Origin: Anaerolineae bacterium
GTDB lineage: Bacteria > Chloroflexota > Anaerolineae > Promineifilales > Promineifilaceae
DNA: 64,000 nt
Assembly (NCBI GenBank): GCA_023954475.1
Contig: JAMLHW010000014.1
Coordinates: 1-64,000, forward strand
Reading direction: 5' to 3'
In this document: positions 1,912 through 12,637 of the stretch, one piece after another
How the letters are laid out: the number at the start of each line of letters is the position of its first letter
How positions within the stretch are numbered: position 1 is the first letter of the stretch
Position numbers and translations under genes: made by a program
The notes under the pieces: generated by a model
Databases searched by the model: none
Told to the model about the DNA's origin: nothing
What the model saw: only the letters and a program-made list of their open reading frames with translations

Positions 1912-3153
1912 ATGGGGCACACAATCGCTGAAAAGATCATCTCCCGCCATGCCGGGCGGCTTGTGCACGCCGCGGAAATTGCCATCGTCCCGATTGACGG
2001 CGCGATGGCGACCGATACCACCGCACCGCTGGCGATCAAGGCGTTTCATGAGATGGGTGGGCGGCGTGTGTGGGACGCAGGCAAAATGGCACTGGTTATC
2101 GACCACGCAGCACCTGCGCCAAATGAACGCATCGCCAACCTGCACCAGATGATGCGCGAATTTTCGGCCGAACAGCATCTTCCCCACTTCTACGACATCG
2201 GTTCCGGCATCTGCCACCAACTCATGGTCGAAAACGGCCACGTCCGACCGGGTGACATCTTCCTTGGCGCTGACTCACACACACCCACTTACGGGGCACT
2301 TGGCGCCTTTGCCGTCGGCGTCGGCTCCACTGACCTGGCCGCCGCCATGCTCACCGGCAAAACATGGCTCAAAGTGCCGCATACCATCAAAATCGTACTC
2401 GAAGGCACGCTGCGACCCGGCATCACAGCCAAAGACGTGATACTGCGGCTCGTCGGCGATCTCGGCATCGCCGGCGCAACCTACGATGCCGTTGAATTCA
2501 CCGGCCCAGTCGTCGCGCGCATGACGCTGGCGAGCCGCATGGTCCTCGCCAATATGGTCGCTGAAATGGGCGCAAAAACGGCGCTCATCGACACCATCGG
2601 CCTCGATCTCGACTACCCGTTCGACCCGATTCATCCCGATCCCGACGCCGTCTACAAAGCCGTGTATACCTTCGACGTTTCTGAACTGACACATCAAATT
2701 GCCGTGCCGCATTCGCCCGACAGCGTCGTGCCACTGACGCAGGTCGCCGGGCAACCGATCGCCATGGCATTCATCGGGTCTTGCACCAACAGTCGCCTGG
2801 AAGATTTGCACGCTGCCGCCGCTGTGCTGCGCGGACGGCATATTGCGCCAGACGTACGGATGATCGTCACTGCTGCCAGTCGCAAGATTTTCAACGAAGC
2901 GCTGCGCGACGGCACCATTGCCACGCTCTCAGAGGCTGGAGCAAGCTTCATCACGTCGGGCTGCGGACCGTGTGTCGGCACTCACCAGGGCGTACCGGGC
3001 GATGATGAAGTCGTCATTTCCAGCACGAATCGCAATTTTCGCGGGCGTATGGGCAATCCCAACGCACGTATCTTTCTCGCGTCGCCGGCGGTCGTGGCGG
3101 CGACAGCGGTGGCAGGCAGAATCATCGATCCGGCCGATTTACAGGCGCGTTGA
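1912..3153 (+). CDS. leuC: 3-isopropylmalate dehydratase / aconitase-type hydro-lyase, large subunit
   Basis: 413 aa, the short LeuC2/HacA-type length. The three [4Fe-4S] ligands are in place: Cys291 in IGSCTNSR, and Cys351 and Cys354 in SGCGPCVGTHQG. GADSHTPTYGALG near residue 119 is the conserved substrate-site segment. The enzyme dehydrates and rehydrates a hydroxy-diacid, such as isopropylmalate, homocitrate or methylmalate, with the small subunit encoded just downstream. No leuA or leuB is nearby. The next genes are a CoA-transferase and an amidohydrolase, so a catabolic substrate such as citramalate or dimethylmalate is a real alternative to leucine synthesis. The family is certain; the substrate is not. 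Confidence 0.88.
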   Translation: MGHTIAEKIISRHAGRLVHAAEIAIVPIDGAMATDTTAPLAIKAFHEMGGRRVWDAGKMALVIDHAAPAPNERIANLHQMMREFSAEQHLPHFYDIGSGICHQLMVENGHVRPGDIFLGADSHTPTYGALGAFAVGVGSTDLAAAMLTGKTWLKVPHTIKIVLEGTLRPGITAKDVILRLVGDLGIAGATYDAVEFTGPVVARMTLASRMVLANMVAEMGAKTALIDTIGLDLDYPFDPIHPDPDAVYKAVYTFDVSELTHQIAVPHSPDSVVPLTQVAGQPIAMAFIGSCTNSRLEDLHAAAAVLRGRHIAPDVRMIVTAASRKIFNEALRDGTIATLSEAGASFITSGCGPCVGTHQGVPGDDEVVISSTNRNFRGRMGNPNARIFLASPAVVAATAVAGRIIDPADLQAR

Positions 3154-3155
3154 AC

Positions 3156-3671
3156 ATGGCGTACAAGGCGAAACAGGTCATCCGTGGCGCAGCGCATGTT
3201 TACGGCGACAATATTGACACGGACCGCATCATTCCGGGCAAATATACGAAGACGCTCGACCTGAGTCATCTCGCCGACCATGTCCTCGAAGACCTCGACC
3301 CGACGTTTCGCGACCGCGTGCAACCGGGCGATATATTGGTGGCGGGTGACAATTTCGGCTGCGGCTCGTCGCGCGAGCAAGCGCCTTTGGCGTTGAAAGA
3401 GGCGGGCGTGAGCGTCGTTGTTGCGTCCTATTTTGCACGCATTTTCTTTCGCAATGCGATCAATATCGGTTTGCCGGTGGTCGAAATCGGCCGACATACA
3501 ATCGCCGACGGCACACAACTCGAAGTCGATCTGGCCCGAGGTGAAGTGCGCGATTTATCGGCCGAGCAAACCTACGCCGCCGCCCCACTCCCCGACATCA
3601 TGCTCGCCATCCTCGATGCGGGCGGATTGGTCCGTTATTTGCAAATCACTGGGGATTATGGGGACAGTTGA
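3156..3671 (+). CDS. leuD: 3-isopropylmalate dehydratase / aconitase-type hydro-lyase, small subunit
   Basis: 171 aa, the usual LeuD 'swivel' domain length. GDNFGCGSSREQAPLAL and the following YFARIFFRNAINIGLP are the family signatures. It forms a heterodimer with the large subunit and carries substrate-recognition residues. I chose the ATG at 3156, two bases after the leuC stop. An in-frame TTG at 3150 would add Met-Asn and overlap leuC. The tight spacing means translational coupling. The substrate ambiguity described for the large subunit applies here too. Confidence 0.88.
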   Translation: MAYKAKQVIRGAAHVYGDNIDTDRIIPGKYTKTLDLSHLADHVLEDLDPTFRDRVQPGDILVAGDNFGCGSSREQAPLALKEAGVSVVVASYFARIFFRNAINIGLPVVEIGRHTIADGTQLEVDLARGEVRDLSAEQTYAAAPLPDIMLAILDAGGLVRYLQITGDYGDS

Positions 3672-3733
3672 CAGTGGTCGGTGGTTGGTGGTGATTCTCC
3701 AATTTCCAGCAAACCACTCTCCGAAAACGCAAC

Positions 3734-4933
3734 ATGAACAACACCCCTTCGTCTCTCCCGCTTGACGGCATCCGTGTTCTTGAATTCAGTCATGCAGCGC
3801 TCGGCCCCACGTGCGGCATGGTGCTCGGCGACCTCGGTGCGGATGTGATTAAGATCGAGCCGACACCCAACGGCGACCCGACGCGCAAGCTCAAGGGCTT
3901 CGGTCTGGGCTACTTCCCTTACCTCAACCGCAATAAGCGCAGTCTGGTCGTCAATGCCAAATCGGCCGAAGGGCAGGCGATCATCCACGGTCTGCTGCAA
4001 TCGGCCGATGTTGTCATCGAAAATTTTGGGCCGGGCACGATGGAACGGCTTGGCCTGGGCTATGAACAACTGCAAGAACGCTATCCCCGTCTCGTCTATT
4101 GCGCGTTGAAAGGCTTTTTGCCCGGCCCGTACGAACAGCGCATGGCCCTCGACGAAGTCGTCCAGATGATGTCCGGGCTGGCCTACATGACCGGGCGACC
4201 GGGCGACCCATTGCGTGCCGGGGCATCGATCACCGACTTGATGACCGGCGTCTATGGGGCATTCGGCGTCGTATTGGCGCTGCAGCAGCGCGAACGCTCC
4301 GGCAAAGGGGAATTGGTGCGCACGGCGTTGTTTGAGACGACGGCGTTCATCATGGGCCATCACATGGCGTATGCAGCACGGACAACCGAACCCGTGCCGC
4401 CGATGCCGGCGCGAGTCAGCGCGTGGGCTATCTACCACCAATTTGCAACCAGCGACGACCGGCGCGTCTTTGTCGGCGTGACCAGCGACAAACAATGGCC
4501 GCGCTTTTGCACGGCGTTTGAACGGCCCGACCTGCTGGCTGACGGCTCGCTGGCGACCAACAACCAGCGCATCGATGCCCGGGACTGGCTGCTCGACGAT
4601 CTACGCACCATGTTCGGCCGAATGACCCGCGACGACATCCTGCACCGTTGCGAACAGGCCAACCTGCCGTTCGCGCCGATTGCGCGTCCCGAAGATCTAT
4701 TCGACGATCCGCAGCTCATTGCAGGCAACAGCTTGTTGGCCACGACGTTTCCCGATGGCACGCAGGCCAAATTGCCGCGTCTACCACTACGGTTTGGCGA
4801 CGATGCCTTGGCATTGCGCCGCAATCCGCCCCGAATGGGCCAACACACACGCGAAATCCTGTCTGAACTGGGTCATCTTCCGGCCGAAATCGATGCCCTG
4901 CTTGCCCAAAAGATAATTGTCAGTGAGGAATGA
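3734..4933 (+). CDS. Family III CoA-transferase (CaiB/BaiF)
   Basis: 399 aa, typical for the family. The N-terminal GIRVLEFSHAALGPTCGMVLGDLGADVIKIE segment is the classic CoA-binding start. Asp168 in ASITDLM sits where formyl-CoA transferase has its catalytic Asp169, which forms the acyl-aspartyl anhydride. The enzyme moves CoA between organic acids. Family members include succinyl-CoA:citramalate CoA-transferase and mesaconyl-CoA C1-C4 transferase of Chloroflexus. Its position between LeuCD-type subunits and an amidohydrolase suggests that the diacid made or used by LeuCD is activated as a CoA thioester. That link is inference. Confidence 0.87.
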   Translation: MNNTPSSLPLDGIRVLEFSHAALGPTCGMVLGDLGADVIKIEPTPNGDPTRKLKGFGLGYFPYLNRNKRSLVVNAKSAEGQAIIHGLLQSADVVIENFGPGTMERLGLGYEQLQERYPRLVYCALKGFLPGPYEQRMALDEVVQMMSGLAYMTGRPGDPLRAGASITDLMTGVYGAFGVVLALQQRERSGKGELVRTALFETTAFIMGHHMAYAARTTEPVPPMPARVSAWAIYHQFATSDDRRVFVGVTSDKQWPRFCTAFERPDLLADGSLATNNQRIDARDWLLDDLRTMFGRMTRDDILHRCEQANLPFAPIARPEDLFDDPQLIAGNSLLATTFPDGTQAKLPRLPLRFGDDALALRRNPPRMGQHTREILSELGHLPAEIDALLAQKIIVSEE

Positions 4934-6414
4934 TGATGTCTGACACGAAATTGTACGATTTGTTGATCAAAAATGTGCGTGTGGTTCGGCCGAAGCAAAC
5001 GAAGGTCAATTCGGCCGATATTGGCATCAAAAACGGTGTGATTGTGGCGGTTGCGGCAGGCTTATCGGCCGAAAACGCGTTCGAACTCCACGAGGGCAAC
5101 GGTTTACTCGCTTTTCCCGGCTTAGTCGATGCCCACATGCACGTCGGTATCTACAACCATCTGACCGCAGACGCGCCCACCGAAAGCAAAGCGGCCGCGA
5201 TGGGCGGCGTCACCAGCGCCATCACCTATTTCCGCACCGGTGACTACTACCTCAACAAAGGAGGCGCGTATGCCGATTTCTTCCCCGAAGTGCTTGACCT
5301 TTCCGCCGGGCGCTATTGGGTCGATTATGCATACCACCTCGCGCCGATCAACGGCGGTCACATCGACGAAATGCCCATGCTGCTCAACGATTTCGGCGTC
5401 TCCTCATTCAAGATTTTCATGTTTTACGGCGGGCACGGCCTACACGGGCGCTCCGACAAGCAGCACAATTTCCTGCGGCTGGCAGATGATGAACGGTACG
5501 ACTTCGCCCATTTTGAGTTTATCATGCGCCAGATGGCGGCAATGCTCGACGCCTATCCTGACAAAGCACCGTACATCAGTCTCAGTTTGCACTGCGAAAT
5601 CGCCGACATACTCAATGCCTATACGAAAATTGTCGAGGCTGATCCTGGATTGAGCGGCTTGCTGGCGTATCATCGCGCGCGCCCGCCCCACTCGGAAGGA
5701 TTGGCCGTCTTTATCGCCGGCTATCTCGCCTACGAAACCGATTGCCTCAACATCAATCTGTTGCACCTCTCGTCGCGCAAGGCGTTGGAAGCGGCGCTGA
5801 TGATGCAGACGCTGTTTCCGCACATCAATTTCCGGCGCGAGGTGACGGTCGGCCATTTGTTGCTCGATGTGGAGACGCCGACACAGGTGCTGGCGAAAGT
5901 CAATCCGCCGATTCGGCCGAGATCAGATGTCGAATTTCTGTGGCAAAGAGTGCTAAACGGTGACGTGGACTGGATCGTCAGTGATCACGCCTGCTGTCGC
6001 AGCGAGATGAAATATTCGGCCGAACATCCCGACGACATCTGGCTGGCAAAATCGGGCTTCGGCGGTACAGAATATTTGCTTTCCGGCGTCTACAGCGAAG
6101 GTCGCAAGCGCGGCCTGTCGCTCAACCGCATGGCGGAATTGACCAGTTGGAACACGGCGCAGCGCTTCGGCTTGTTGCGCAAAGGGGATATCGCGCCCGG
6201 TTATGATGCCGACATTGTGCTTTTCGACCCGTCGGAGACGTTTGTCGTCCGTGCGGCCGAATCGGCATCGCAGCAAGGCTATACGCCGTTTGAGGGACAG
6301 GAATTGACCGGGCGCGTCAAGCAAACATTTCTGCGCGGCAATCTGGTCTACGACAATGGCTCAATTATCGGCCCGGCGCGTGGCAACTATCTGTTTCGGC
6401 CGATGGGGAGCTAA
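4930..6414 (+). CDS. Dihydropyrimidinase/hydantoinase-type cyclic amidohydrolase
   Basis: 494 aa. The binuclear metal ligands of this superfamily are all visible: His69 and His71 (DAHMH), candidate carboxylated Lys161 (SSFKIFM), His221 (LSLHCE), His279 (LLHLSS) and Asp352 (SDHACC). The C-terminal DIVLFDPSE and late beta-strands complete the fold. It should hydrolyse a cyclic amide such as a hydantoin, dihydropyrimidine, allantoin or lactam. The first ATG overlaps the CoA-transferase stop (ATGA), and ATGs at 4933 and 4936 are equally possible starts. Operon context suggests degradation of an N-heterocycle to a diacid, but the substrate cannot be read from sequence. Confidence 0.85.
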   Translation: MMMSDTKLYDLLIKNVRVVRPKQTKVNSADIGIKNGVIVAVAAGLSAENAFELHEGNGLLAFPGLVDAHMHVGIYNHLTADAPTESKAAAMGGVTSAITYFRTGDYYLNKGGAYADFFPEVLDLSAGRYWVDYAYHLAPINGGHIDEMPMLLNDFGVSSFKIFMFYGGHGLHGRSDKQHNFLRLADDERYDFAHFEFIMRQMAAMLDAYPDKAPYISLSLHCEIADILNAYTKIVEADPGLSGLLAYHRARPPHSEGLAVFIAGYLAYETDCLNINLLHLSSRKALEAALMMQTLFPHINFRREVTVGHLLLDVETPTQVLAKVNPPIRPRSDVEFLWQRVLNGDVDWIVSDHACCRSEMKYSAEHPDDIWLAKSGFGGTEYLLSGVYSEGRKRGLSLNRMAELTSWNTAQRFGLLRKGDIAPGYDADIVLFDPSETFVVRAAESASQQGYTPFEGQELTGRVKQTFLRGNLVYDNGSIIGPARGNYLFRPMGS

Positions 6415-6940: not shown

Positions 6941-9490
6941 CTACGGTACATCGAGTTGTCGCCGCAGTTCGTCGTCCAGCAGACGGCCGGCGTAATTGCG
7001 TGGCAAGTGCTGGACAAAGCGGAATTGATACGGTACGTGATTTTCCGGCAGGCGTTCGCTACAAAATGTGCGCAAAATATCGGCCGAAATCTCATTGTTT
7101 TCCACCGTAACAAGGCATGCCAGCAGCCCTTCCGGCTGCGACAAAACAGCGACATCATCCACTTCCGGCAATTCAATCAGCACTTCTTCGATGTCACGCG
7201 GTATGATCAAATCACCGGTTGGCGTCCGATGCAAAGCGCTGCAACGACCGAGAATGTAGAAATAGCCGTCATCGTCAATTTCAGCAATATCACCCGTCGC
7301 CAACCAGCCATCTTCCAGATAAACGCTGCCTGTCGCGTCGTGATCCAAATAGCCGCACATCACTTGCGGCCCACGCACAACCAATTCGCCGACATGGAAA
7401 AATGACTGCGGCTCACCACTCTGCAAATCGCGCACTTCAGCTTCAACACCAGGTAGCGGCAGGCCAACTGAGCCTGTCCGATTGCGCTGCAACGGGTTGC
7501 AATGGGTGACGGCTGCCGTTTCACTCATGCCATAACATTCGACCACGCGGGCATGTGACAAGCGTTCGAACACTTCTTGCTTCTCGAGTGGCAACGGCGC
7601 ACCCGTACTCAGAAAAACCGGGCCGGGTGATGCCACAAATTGGGCTAATCCGGGGAATTCACTAAAGCCCTTGAGCGTATGCGGTGTACTGACAACGATG
7701 GACGGCTTCCAGAGCCACATCGCACGCAGGAAAAGCTCTCTGTCTGCTTCCGGAAACAAGTCAATACGCGACGCGGCGTGTACAGCCAGATTGACGCCCA
7801 ATGTCAACCCAATGGCGGTACTGAACGGCACGGCGCTCATGATGCTACCGTGTCGAAGCTCAAGTGCCTGAGTCCAATCAACCATCTGTACCGCCGTCGT
7901 GACCAGATTGGTGTGGCTCAGTTGAATACCGCGTCTTGCCGAATCAGGAGTAAACAAGATGACAGCCGTGCTGTCCGGATCGGGAAAAGACTCCGGCTGC
8001 GTTTCTGGTTTCATCAATACCAGCTCACGCCAGGTCACGATGTGGGAATTGGCGAGCGGCTCATCATGTGTGGTCTTTGCCTCATCGCGCACTTTTTTAC
8101 GCCGTCCCTGGCGCCGCTCCTGGCGCCGCTCTCCGTAGTCGTCGTAGTCAGCGATGATGATTTTTTCGAGATCAGTGGTTGTGCGGAGCGTTTCGGCCGA
8201 ATCTTGCAGCGTATTCATCGCAATCAGCCACCGCGCATCCGTGATCTCAATCTGAGCCTGTATCTGTTCCAGCGCAGCACTTACGTCACCCAACACAGCA
8301 ACCGCATTGATCGCTTGCACAGCGTATAAAGCAACTAGAAAATGCGGCGTGTTGGGTAGCCACAAATAGACCCTCGCACCGGATCCGACACCTTGTGCAC
8401 GTAATCCAGCGGCGACAGAACGAACCTGTGCAGCAAATCCTTTATATTGCATTCGTTCGCGCCGATACTGCCACGCGGTAGCGTCGCCATTGTTACGCAC
8501 CGTATAGGCCAGCATTTGTGACAACGAAATGCGTATCGGGTCGATGTTATGGGGCACACTCTCGGCGTAACGGGCAATCCACGGGCGCGTCACCAACAAT
8601 GGCAAACCGGCAACGCCATCCATATTGCGTCGCCAACCGGGCTGTTTGCGCACGACTTCATCCGGCTCCAGAAACCGCTCCATCAACCGCACGACTGCTT
8701 GGGGACGCTCTAGCGGGATTTGATGCTTGGACACACCAATATCAACCATTTCCGCATTCGGCAACAGATCTGCAAAAACCGCATACGACTCATGTGAAAA
8801 TACACGGTCGCGTTCGCCACGAATAAACAATGTTTTGTGCGTGACCTTGGGCAACTTATCGTGTCCATCCCATGTCAACAACCCGTTCTGAAAAAGCTGT
8901 TTCAAACCCAACAAAGACGCTTCGCCGCGCGGATCGAGTTCGTAGAATGGCTGTGCCCAACGAAAAAGGAAGTCGGGCATTTTCATGATGCGACCGGCCG
9001 AACGCACGATGCCGCTGTCGGCAAATGAGACGGGTGTTGCAATAATAACGAGCTTGGCGACACGGTGTGGGTGGCGCAAGGCGAATTCAACCACGACCGC
9101 TCCACCCGTTGAGTGTCCGCCGACGACGACAGGCTCATCAATTCCAAGCTGATCGAGCACGGCGGCTGTGTCATCAGCTAACTGCTCAAACGAGTAGCCA
9201 GACGATGGACGTGAAGAGAGGCCACAACCGCGTTCGTCGATGGCTATAACGCGATAACGACAGCTAAGCGCCGGTATCTGCGGCTGCCACCACTTTGTGG
9301 AGGCTGCAAATCCGTGCAGCAAAACGATGACGCCCATTGGATTGTCGGGATATACGTCGAGGATACTCAAACGGACATCGTCACCCTCTGGATCGGGTAT
9401 CCATATATCGCGCCGGAACAGTTCGAGTCGTTCTGAGGCATGACTGATTTCGGCCGAAGCGATGGAGTCGAGAACGGCGCCAATATTCAT
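6941..9490 (-). CDS. Alpha/beta hydrolase - AMP-binding (adenylation) domain fusion
   Basis: 849 aa from the ATG at 9490; upstream in-frame starts would add a non-homologous 38 residues. Residues 50-275 are an alpha/beta hydrolase with oxyanion HG (59-60), nucleophile Ser127 (GGHSTGG) and candidate His256. Residues 325-849 are an acyl-CoA synthetase-like ANL domain with YGMSE (653-657), ATGD (731-734) and YILGR. The P-loop A3 motif is degenerate (FTPDSARRG, 513-521), and the A10 catalytic Lys is Arg836 (YAGRLL). A charged insert rich in Arg lies near 452-470. Adenylation may be weak or lost. OleB-OleC fusions have a similar order, but OleB uses Asp, not Ser, as nucleophile. Confidence 0.8.
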   Translation of the reverse strand: MNIGAVLDSIASAEISHASERLELFRRDIWIPDPEGDDVRLSILDVYPDNPMGVIVLLHGFAASTKWWQPQIPALSCRYRVIAIDERGCGLSSRPSSGYSFEQLADDTAAVLDQLGIDEPVVVGGHSTGGAVVVEFALRHPHRVAKLVIIATPVSFADSGIVRSAGRIMKMPDFLFRWAQPFYELDPRGEASLLGLKQLFQNGLLTWDGHDKLPKVTHKTLFIRGERDRVFSHESYAVFADLLPNAEMVDIGVSKHQIPLERPQAVVRLMERFLEPDEVVRKQPGWRRNMDGVAGLPLLVTRPWIARYAESVPHNIDPIRISLSQMLAYTVRNNGDATAWQYRRERMQYKGFAAQVRSVAAGLRAQGVGSGARVYLWLPNTPHFLVALYAVQAINAVAVLGDVSAALEQIQAQIEITDARWLIAMNTLQDSAETLRTTTDLEKIIIADYDDYGERRQERRQGRRKKVRDEAKTTHDEPLANSHIVTWRELVLMKPETQPESFPDPDSTAVILFTPDSARRGIQLSHTNLVTTAVQMVDWTQALELRHGSIMSAVPFSTAIGLTLGVNLAVHAASRIDLFPEADRELFLRAMWLWKPSIVVSTPHTLKGFSEFPGLAQFVASPGPVFLSTGAPLPLEKQEVFERLSHARVVECYGMSETAAVTHCNPLQRNRTGSVGLPLPGVEAEVRDLQSGEPQSFFHVGELVVRGPQVMCGYLDHDATGSVYLEDGWLATGDIAEIDDDGYFYILGRCSALHRTPTGDLIIPRDIEEVLIELPEVDDVAVLSQPEGLLACLVTVENNEISADILRTFCSERLPENHVPYQFRFVQHLPRNYAGRLLDDELRRQLDVP

Positions 9491-9503: not shown

Positions 9504-9649
9504 GCCGAACAAAACCTGTTTTTGACCATCACGATTACAACTGTGTGATATTGCGGCCAAACAAGTAGCCATGTATTGCTCCACTGCGGCAACTGGATTA
9601 ACATCGGCTTTATGCGCTATCTGGAAACCCTGGTGATGTGTCACACCTT

Positions 9650-10984
9650 ATGACCAAACGACTATCACGACGATTGCAAATAGTTTTGTTCGCACTTGTA
9701 TTGGGATTGTTGGCGGGCTGTACGAACATCAATTCGGCCGAAACGCTACCCACCTTCCAACCCATATCACCGTCAGCCACAGCAACACCACCACCCCAGC
9801 CCACCGCAACGGCGACACAAAAACCAGTGCCGACGGCAACCACACCGGCGACACCAACGCCATACAAACGTCCGGAACTAGGCTACTTGCAAGCGGAACT
9901 GGATCGAATCCTGGCAGACTTTGACGGTGTAAGCAGTTATGTCGTCATCGATTTAACGTCAGGACAGCGCATTGAACGCAATGCGGATGTTGCCATTTCC
10001 GGCATGAGCCTGTTGAAAATTCCGATTCTAATCGAAACATACGCTGCACTGAATCGTCCACCGGACATCGAACAGCAAAAATTAATCACCCAGACAACAG
10101 CGTTGTCCAGTAATTTTGCGGCCAACTTGCTATTGCGCACCGTTATTTCCGACCGCGATGACAGCTTTGATGGCGCTGAGCAAGTGACCAACGCTATGCG
10201 GGAATTGGGTTTGTTCGGTACGTTTATAACTGTTCCCTATGAACAAGACGCACGTGAAGGCCAACTGGCAACATTCCTCACGCCTGCCAACAGTCGTTCC
10301 GATGTGACCATGCAGCCGGATTCTTTTCGACAAACGACAATTGGCGATTTGAGTGTCGTATTGACCATGCTCTATGAGTGCGCAGAACATGGCCGTGGCA
10401 AGCTGGTGGAACAATACGGAGAACTTTTGACTCAGGCTGAGTGTCAGGAACTGCTGGCACAGCTAGAGCTCAACGATCTTGTCTTGTTGCTGGAAGCAGG
10501 GCTGCCGGACGACACGACGTTTGCGCACAAGATTGGATATGTGGATGAAACGTACGGTGACGTGGGCATTGTCTATTCTCCGGGTGGTGATTACGTATTG
10601 GGATTGGCACTCTATACACCTACCTGGCTGGAATGGTCAATCGCATCACCGGTATTTGCCGAGGTTTCTCGCCTGACGTACCGTCACTTTAACGATAGGG
10701 ACGCGTATTCGGCCGAAACCCTTGCCATCCCACCCGCCATCACGCCCGCCGCCACAAGAGAGCCATCTCCCTATCCGCAAGCGCTGGTTTACGGCACACG
10801 CGGTGTCGGTCTGACGATGCGGGAAACGCCTGGCGGCAACGAAGTCGCGATTCTGCCGGATGGCGCAGTTGTTGGTTTGTTGGCTGATCTGCCCGTAGTG
10901 GTCAATGGGGTATCGTGGCGCAGGATCGCAACTGCTGCCGGTCAGTCAGGTTGGGTCAGTGCCGATTATCTGATCACGGAATAG
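9650..10984 (+). CDS. Lipoprotein: class A beta-lactamase-fold serine hydrolase with C-terminal SH3 domain
   Basis: 444 aa from ATG 9650; a GTG at 9638 in frame is an alternative start. A signal peptide ends in a lipobox (LGLLAGC), followed by a Thr/Pro-rich tether to about residue 70. The catalytic domain has the SxxK pattern (MSLLK in SGMSLLKIP), an SSN in the SDN position and HKIG in the KTG position, as in class A beta-lactamase-like penicillin-interacting enzymes. The last ~75 residues (GVGLTMRETPGGNEVAILPDG...WVSADYL) form a bacterial SH3 domain that probably binds cell wall. It is expected on the outer face of the membrane and could act on peptidoglycan or beta-lactams. It is divergent from the upstream fusion gene. 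Confidence 0.8.
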   Translation: MTKRLSRRLQIVLFALVLGLLAGCTNINSAETLPTFQPISPSATATPPPQPTATATQKPVPTATTPATPTPYKRPELGYLQAELDRILADFDGVSSYVVIDLTSGQRIERNADVAISGMSLLKIPILIETYAALNRPPDIEQQKLITQTTALSSNFAANLLLRTVISDRDDSFDGAEQVTNAMRELGLFGTFITVPYEQDAREGQLATFLTPANSRSDVTMQPDSFRQTTIGDLSVVLTMLYECAEHGRGKLVEQYGELLTQAECQELLAQLELNDLVLLLEAGLPDDTTFAHKIGYVDETYGDVGIVYSPGGDYVLGLALYTPTWLEWSIASPVFAEVSRLTYRHFNDRDAYSAETLAIPPAITPAATREPSPYPQALVYGTRGVGLTMRETPGGNEVAILPDGAVVGLLADLPVVVNGVSWRRIATAAGQSGWVSADYLITE

Positions 10985-11551: not shown

Positions 11552-12637
11552 ATGGCAAACACACGCAAGAAAGTACGCGTCGCAATCATCGGTGTCGGCA
11601 ATTGTGCCAACGCCCTTGTGCAAGGTGTACATTACTATCAAAATGCGGCCGAAGACGCCGAAATCCCGGGTCTGATGCATGCTACAGTCGGTGGCTACCA
11701 CGTGAGCGATATCGAGTTTTCAGCCGCATTCGACGTCGTCAAAGGCAAAGTCGGCAAGGATTTGAGCGAAGCCATCTGGGCACATCCCAATGACACGATC
11801 AAATTCGCCGAAGTACCGTATCTGAATGTGCCTGTTTATCGTGGTATGACCCACGATGGCATTGGCCAGTATGTCAGCACGGTTGTCGAAAAAGCACCTG
11901 GCCCTACCGACAATATTGTCAAGATTCTCAAAGATACCGGCACAGACATCGTCGTCAATTTCATGCCCGTCGGTTCTGAAATGGCAACAAAATGGTATGT
12001 TGAGCAGGTGATGGAAGCTGGCTGCGGTTTTGTCAACGGCATCCCGGTCTTTATCGCCACGTCGCCGTATTGGAGCGAACGGTTTCGTGAACGCGGCCTG
12101 CCCATCATCGGTGACGATATCAAAAGCCAGGTCGGTGCCACGATTACGCACCGCGTTTTGACCAATTTATTCAAGGATCGCGGCATCCATCTCGACCGCA
12201 CTTACCAGCTCAACTTTGGCGGCAACATGGACTTTTACAACATGCTGGAGCGCAGCCGTCTGGAGTCGAAAAAAATCTCCAAGACAAATGCCGTCACCAG
12301 TCAGTTGCCCTATGATTTGGGAGAAGGCAATGTCCATGTCGGTCCCAGCGACTACGTGCCGTGGCTAACCGATCGCAAATGGTGCCACATTCGTATGGAA
12401 GGCCGTGCGTTTGGCAATGTCCCGCTGCAACTGGAGCTCAAACTGGAAGTATGGGATTCACCTAATTCGGCCGGTGTGATGATTGACGCGGTGCGCTGCG
12501 CTAAATTGGCACTAGACCGGGGCATTGGCGGCCCACTAATTGCGCCCTCTTCCTATTTTATGAAGTCCCCACCACAACAGTTCACCGACGATGAGGCTCG
12601 CGAATTGACAGAAGCCTATATTCGCGGTGATGTTTAG
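11552..12637 (+). CDS. ino1: Myo-inositol-1-phosphate synthase
   Basis: 361 aa, the length of actinobacterial and archaeal enzymes and shorter than eukaryotic INO1. The N-terminal [16 protein letters not shown] is the NAD-binding turn. [17 protein letters not shown] and [13 protein letters not shown] are conserved active-site blocks, with lysines in [11 protein letters not shown]. It converts glucose-6-phosphate to inositol-3-phosphate (1L-myo-inositol-1-phosphate), the entry to inositol phospholipids or inositol-based solutes. AAGGAGA precedes the ATG, and a strong terminator follows, so it is a single-gene unit. The function is well supported by sequence. Confidence 0.93.

Follow-up and report, generated by a model that had tools for sequence, protein, structure and literature searches.

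Does a fatty acid-activating domain that appears to have lost the motifs for adenylation still serve the enzyme to which it is fused? This question is raised by one gene on the minus strand of the window (the whole stretch of Anaerolineae DNA that was analysed, 64,000 nucleotides). Its frame at 6941–9490 is uninterrupted and encodes one 849-aa protein from the ATG at 9490. The longest ORF runs from 9604 to 6941 on the same strand (887 aa from its first ATG); the start at 9490 is supported because the nearest relative, L009, which belongs to another genus, aligns from residue 1 of the 849-aa protein. A TATAAT just upstream of this ATG was spotted by eye and is absent from the promoter-scan output.

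6941–9490, minus strand: hydrolase-ANL fusion gene, 849 aa (ORF open to 9604)
8666–9427, minus strand: alpha/beta hydrolase domain, residues 22–275 (Pfam, AlphaFold2 model, family alignment)
6956–8590, minus strand: ANL domain (AMP-binding plus AMP-binding_C), residues 301–845 (Pfam, NCBIfam FadD-like models, fold matches)

The sequence-only reading of this locus had proposed a Ser hydrolase fused to an ANL domain, and this architecture holds: a single frame carries Pfam matches to Abhydrolase_1 (54–154) and Abhydrolase_6 (55–268), then to AMP-binding (330–715, E 7.9e-56) and AMP-binding_C (767–835), and the Ser127-Asp228-His256 triad is present. In an AlphaFold2 model built from 31 homologues (mean pLDDT 85.2, pTM 0.86), the hydrolase is followed by a complete ANL fold. 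A model was also made for the intact fusion L016; the Foldseek search used the window model alone. In that search about 540 columns align to ATP-bound MatB, MatB chimeras, 4-coumarate:CoA ligase and luciferases, the first three PDB matches being ATP-bound MatB or MatB chimeras (TM 0.88 by target length). The C-terminal half belongs to the ANL superfamily by fold and descent.

Homologous fusions were sought and found. Matches to both halves occur in 33 of 52 genomes of the window's family (E up to 1e-70), as a single copy in 32 of these 33. Of 396 genomes drawn from the window's class, 115 have such a match (1e-90). A single-sequence scan of genome contigs gave no match; a profile scan of named genomes retained 80 loci, the best 80 of 350 relatives among at least 587 stretches. 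By title these are mostly Chloroflexota or Anaerolineae, the others being Ktedonobacterales, Deltaproteobacteria, Kiritimatiellae, Collimonas, Gallionella, Nitrosomonadales, Burkholderiales and the archaeon Candidatus Harpocratesius. Both halves lie in one frame in 73 of the 80; the remaining seven, which include one of the two deltaproteobacterial loci, lie at contig ends, have broken frames or carry a single half. Repeat removal left an alignment of 181 rows, window included. The archaeal fusion (L214, 3953–6445 of its contig) has intact motifs and lies at the base of a mostly chloroflexote clade on the hydrolase tree, which is likely to reflect transfer between domains but may instead reflect contamination. 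Neither this fusion nor a protein pairing a hydrolase with an inactive ANL domain came up in the open-access literature searched, in which broad topics were sampled only in small part.

The window genome has one full-length fusion, all 43 candidates having been scored, and intact stand-alone ANLs (L002, L003, L004 and L006). No intact fusion paralogue accompanies the non-adenylating copy there (43 of 43 candidates) or in G029 (18 of 33 candidates scored); G075, G226 and G417 gave one fusion match each at 1e-90 among two candidates scored per genome.

The N-terminal half has the GxSxG elbow, Asp and His of a serine alpha/beta hydrolase. All three catalytic residues are invariant in the 179 of 181 rows that have the positions; in the remaining two the frame used does not include the hydrolase half. 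Among 40 conserved hydrolase columns, the window retains 34 and loses six, and L009 retains 35.

9110–9112, minus strand: nucleophile Ser127 in GGHSTGG, with a GHSTG elbow (S in 179 of 179 rows)
8807–8809, minus strand: acid Asp228 (D in 179 of 179 rows)
8723–8725, minus strand: His256 (H in 179 of 179 rows)

The ANL half gives a different picture, with some motifs retained and others lost.

7910–7963, minus strand: rewritten A3 phosphate loop VILFTPDSARRGIQLSHT, residues 510–527 (a permissive A3 pattern matches 166 of 178 rows with letters there, the window not among the 166)
7520–7543, minus strand: A5 motif VECYGMSE, residues 650–657, retained (family alignment)
7289–7291, minus strand: A7 Asp734 (TGD), retained (D in 176 of 176 rows with the position)
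7199–7246, minus strand: A8 loop Arg749–Pro764 RCSALHRTPTGDLIIP (Arg retained, hinge Asp/Lys lost, Gly five before Pro)
6983–6985, minus strand: A10 position, Arg836 replacing the catalytic Lys (K in 165 of 172 rows whose frame reaches the region)

Both the Ser/Thr/Gly-rich A3 phosphate loop and the A10 Gly-Lys of an active acyl-CoA synthetase are missing in the window. At A3 the window protein has FTPDSARRGIQLSH, against FTSGTTGxPKGxxLSH or something near it in most of the family; the loop is changed throughout and shorter rather than altered at a single residue. Its A10 reads AGRLLDDEL, with Gly-Arg836, where the family has IGKVLRREL or near it. The alignment thus bears out the proposal that A3 is rewritten and that the catalytic Lys has become Arg836. 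According to passages in PMC2793005, K487A at A10 of FadD13 removes 96% of activity, and K172A at A3 raises the Km for ATP about 10-fold and leaves about a third of Vmax. Features of an active synthetase that the window does retain are A5 (Y653 and E657), the A7 Asp (D734) and the A8 Arg (R749). The sequence-only reading had A5 and A7/A8 kept, which is accurate for these residues and not for the rest of A8: there is no hinge Asp/Lys, and the loop exceeds its usual 14 residues by one. Against the pattern RX(D/K)X6G, a CoA-tunnel Gly can be assigned only when this longer loop is anchored at Pro764.

This loss extends beyond the named motifs. Among 113 ANL columns conserved at 95% or more in 168 intact rows, the window retains 84 and loses 29, the A3 Gly/Thr and A10 Lys among them, and L009 retains 77; 11 of 12 random intact rows retain 111–113 and the twelfth, L237, retains 106, these rows having helped to define the columns. 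The table omits L129 and L195, the latter a fragment that starts inside a broken frame. The motif loss in the window is not chance. By the motifs examined its ANL half is not an active acyl-CoA synthetase and, because A3 and the A10 Lys are both gone, should not make acyl-AMP, in line with the earlier suggestion that it may not activate the acyl groups that it would bind.

Examining A3 and the Arg836 position across the family, we found most relatives intact and both features lost jointly in seven of the 172 rows that reach A10 (the other nine of 181 end earlier). At A10 these seven have Arg (window), Thr (L142) or Val (L034), or miss the strand altogether (L009 and the betaproteobacterial rows L229, Collimonas; L238, Nitrosomonadales; and L239, Gallionella); all seven retain A5 Tyr and Glu, A7 Asp and A8 Arg. 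A3 alone is lost in L122, L134 and L135. Two further rows are altered in part: L021 fits the permissive A3 pattern despite its altered loop, and L241 fails it, with an inserted residue and no A3 Lys. We take the changes as losses because stand-alone ANL relatives are intact in all 24 correctly read controls.

On the hydrolase tree (a quick, hydrolase-only tree with SH-aLRT support of 80 of the 181 rows, in which every non-adenylating or partly altered row was joined by intact rows of at least 780 aa thinned at 72% identity), L009 is the sister of the window (support 100), and the two sit within a group of eight rows from their own family that has support 99. L241 lies next to a clade (97) made up of the three betaproteobacterial rows. 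L034 groups with intact rows (96), and L142 falls outside that group. At least four changes are needed to account for the seven losses. Forcing all seven together into one clade lowers the log-likelihood by 171 and is rejected (p-AU 6.5e-9).

Two simple accounts can be set aside on these results. Sequencing error or a frameshift is excluded because the loss is common to L009, from another genus and genome, and the frame is uninterrupted; a unique local event is excluded by the recurrence of the loss in the family and the rejection of a single clade. Intact homologues, which the sequence-only reading had linked to local decay or sequencing error, do exist, but the consequence fails, since the loss is shared and recurrent. 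A separate set of fusions, L245 and L250–L253, is sister to the non-adenylating betaproteobacterial clade, with L245 in the genome of L241 (titled Burkholderiales); they have lost the A3 Lys (SGTTGAxPAG and alike), retain the glycines, and have the A10 Lys in all four that reach it, so it is possible that they represent an intermediate.

Rates in the two halves were compared on a fixed topology with motif columns omitted, using 79 rows (L129, with a long branch, was dropped) and leaving the four partly altered rows out of the statistics. The ratio of ANL to hydrolase end branches has a median of 0.95 in 68 intact rows; it is 2.34 in the window (surpassed by three of the 68 intact tips), 2.32 in L009, 2.60 in L034, 1.92 in L142 and 1.19–1.62 in the three betaproteobacterial rows. 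The seven differ from the 68 (p 0.00015; p 0.0009 with one value per origin), and 19 intact rows with similar hydrolase branches (0.4–0.8) have ratios of 0.41–1.24. The stem shared by the window and L009 has a ratio of 1.02, and that of the betaproteobacterial clade 2.88. Because the stem ratio is 1.02 against 2.3 on the end branches, the ANL excess in the window lineage follows the shared loss rather than accompanying it. This stem is also long in the hydrolase tree (1.39), so the hydrolase half changed much too, and it may have acquired a new substrate.

The window's own non-adenylating lineage consists of two distant members, 42–44% identical overall, 53% in the hydrolase and 36% in the ANL half. 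Free drift of the ANL half would be expected to give a roughly tenfold ratio, assuming a hydrolase dN/dS of about 0.1 there; the half looks relaxed but below that level. Given the retained frame, the retained columns and a ratio below this rough neutral expectation, we infer that it is still constrained. More can be said for the betaproteobacterial clade. When the search was extended, the non-adenylating form turned up in Collimonas, in one relative from the same order (90% identical) and in eight of 158 genomes of the Gallionella family, one of these copies being a fragment; the Collimonas and Gallionella-family copies have similar rewritten A3 loops and no A10 strand. Their dN/dS (NG86) is 0.06–0.11 in the ANL half (15 of 17 pairs gave a value) and 0.04–0.12 in the hydrolase (16 of 17), compared with 0.28–0.39 and 0.15–0.31 over eight pairs of the A10-keeping sister clade; several dS values are at or near saturation, and the Collimonas pair is the cleanest (dS 0.65 and 0.67). 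The A3- and A10-less ANL domain of this clade is under strong purifying selection. Plain decay does not explain the whole set, because the loss recurs and the betaproteobacterial domain is under such selection; in the window's own lineage decay may still be at work.

The A8 Gly lines the tunnel for the CoA pantetheine, according to a passage in PMC11255334. It is present in all 24 correctly read stand-alone ANLs (a further control, L266, was read in the wrong frame and is uncounted). Among the fusions it stands at the usual distance from the Arg (R+9) in only seven of 166 rows with A3/A10 intact or partly altered. Counted from the next Pro, it is found in 22 of 162 intact rows versus six of seven non-adenylating ones (Fisher p 8e-5), an excess that comes from few independent origins and depends on how a variable loop is anchored; it is absent from L009. 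Most intact fusions may therefore be enzymes that adenylate without the usual CoA step, passing the acyl group to a non-CoA acceptor.

Seven neighbours were scanned in the window: aconitase-type large and small subunits, CoA-transferase III, amidohydrolase, HIT-like, beta-lactamase-like and inositol-phosphate synthase. In nine loci of the window's family, a Methyltransf_4 gene of the trmB type adjoins the fusion or sits one gene away. The other neighbours scanned at the fusion loci are housekeeping or unrelated genes, and no conserved neighbour hints at a substrate. In Collimonas the gene that comes directly after the non-adenylating fusion is an intact FadD-like one. Within the window, the genes at 1912–6414 encode the aconitase/homoaconitase-type large and small subunits, the class III CoA-transferase and the amidohydrolase, which is allantoinase/hydantoinase-like; they all point the same way, their ends overlap or lie close together, and the set looks like a pathway operon. 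Divergent from the fusion, 9638–10984 encodes a Beta-lactamase2-type protein (Pfam) with, by eye, a lipoprotein-like start and a low-complexity linker; 11552–12637 encodes an inositol-3-phosphate synthase of the mycothiol INO1 type (528 bits, under the 638 cut-off).

What, then, is the ANL half for? We lean towards the view that the protein combines a serine hydrolase that is still active with an ANL domain that has ceased to form acyl-AMP and is kept for ligand binding, regulation or scaffolding. The N-terminal half would be a serine esterase, lipase or thioesterase still catalytic through Ser127-His256-Asp228, and the C-terminal domain, of FadD-like descent, would have lost the first half-reaction (ATP + fatty acid -> acyl-AMP + PPi). 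Since the triad is kept wherever ANL motifs are lost, the hydrolase probably acts before the ANL domain or without need of it, and would release acyl groups from an ester or thioester. In intact members the ANL half would then act on the released acyl groups; in non-adenylating members the cell's ordinary acyl-CoA ligases would activate them in trans, and candidates for this role are the intact stand-alone ANLs of the window genome and the adjoining FadD-like gene of Collimonas. The remaining domain might bind an acyl chain, acyl-CoA or AMP, regulate, or scaffold the hydrolase. Most likely the hydrolase is the constant element of the family and ANL catalysis the dispensable one. Counting against this explanation are the origin of the dN/dS values, which come from the betaproteobacterial clade rather than the window lineage, the window-lineage stem ratio of 1.02, the six of 40 hydrolase columns lost, the finding of no conserved neighbour that hints at a substrate, and the A10 strand missing in L009, which can be read as continuing decay.

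Such decay, with the ANL half a dead appendage drifting under a still-selected hydrolase in the window lineage, fits the end-branch ratio of 2.34, the 29 of 113 lost columns and the missing A10 strand of L009. It sits poorly with a full frame retained in both genera at 36% ANL identity, a complete predicted fold (mean pLDDT 85) and a parallel betaproteobacterial clade with a fixed rewritten A3 and dN/dS near 0.1, and we regard it as distinctly unlikely. Another account, which we hold to be rather unlikely, is that the domain has lost adenylation only and still binds acyl-CoA + AMP and acyl-AMP + CoA or converts one pair into the other, thereby supplying or gating a thioesterase activity of the hydrolase. 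It is favoured by the A5 Tyr and Glu, the A7 Asp and the A8 Arg, none of which is lost in any of the seven non-adenylating rows, and by the tunnel Gly, which six of them share with the stand-alone ANLs and few intact fusions. These rows are not independent, however: three of the six are one clade whose A10-keeping sisters also have the Gly, L009 lacks it, the window has it only if its longer loop is anchored at Pro, and the A8 hinge residue is lost there.

The fold that is predicted complete, the retained A5, A7 and A8 Arg, and the conservative change to Arg836 would also suit a domain that still adenylates with a non-canonical phosphate loop and Arg for Lys. A single A3 change need not abolish activity, as the residual third of Vmax in FadD13 K172A indicates (a passage in PMC2793005). 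But here the whole loop is changed and shorter, L009 has no A10 strand, and loss of the A10 Lys in K487A costs FadD13 96% of activity, albeit with Ala in that mutant where the window has Arg; we consider continued adenylation very improbable. We hardly credit a beta-lactone decarboxylase/synthetase fusion of the OleB-OleC type. A hydrolase and an ANL enzyme do share one chain here, and oleBC fusions exist (a passage in PMC7064751), but the elbow Ser is present in 179 of 179 rows, whereas OleB is dehalogenase-like. FadD-type NCBIfam models score best for the window and match all 32 members scanned, and no oleA- or oleD-like gene is among the seven neighbours scanned. Returning to the catalytically silent but retained domain that we prefer, it is tempting to go further and suppose that ANL domains turned several times independently into nucleotide- or acyl-CoA-sensing regulators gating the fused serine hydrolase. 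This would make the protein an AMP/acyl-CoA-controlled lipase or thioesterase acting through a synthetase that has given up the use of ATP, for which the CoA-tunnel Gly and ribose-binding residues were kept; we offer this as speculation that is probably wrong in at least part. If true, it would be a new regulatory use of a very common metabolic fold.

Comparison with known systems places the fusion more closely. The nucleophile of OleB is an Asp. The parallel drawn by the sequence-only reading with OleB-OleC stands for the domain order, hydrolase and ANL in one chain; it fails in the nucleophile and the ANL subfamily, and the genes scanned next to the fusion in the window include none recognisable as ole. 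A title cited in PMC7158056 describes OleB as resembling haloalkane dehalogenases. For the hydrolase half, the closest solved relatives by profile are esterase 5egn, related bacterial esterases and the PHB depolymerase 8ynv, whose best matched stretches span roughly the first 130 of the profile's 304 positions; the matches listed show no ANL half. PRK06814, an acyl-[ACP]--phospholipid O-acyltransferase that scores 118.8 bits to the window, is an acyltransferase-ANL fusion. It likewise has a lipid-acting N-terminal part followed by ANL, with an N-terminal partner from another family than the window's. FadD-type long-chain acyl-CoA ligases (PRK05605, PRK06187 and PRK06710) share the ANL fold and are the top-scoring NCBIfam models for the window ANL half, which differs in its score (293 bits against the PRK05605 cut-off of 766), in the loss of A3 and the A10 Lys and in the added N-terminal hydrolase. 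The best family matches would name such a gene long-chain-fatty-acid--CoA ligase, a label that is probably wrong about catalysis here. Nearest of all are the intact hydrolase-FadD fusions of Anaerolineae and others, with the same architecture and triad; unlike the window, most have A3 and the A10 Lys intact, and most have replaced the A8 CoA-tunnel Gly. Together, the intact, partly altered and non-adenylating fusions form a natural series for asking what a non-adenylating ANL domain does.
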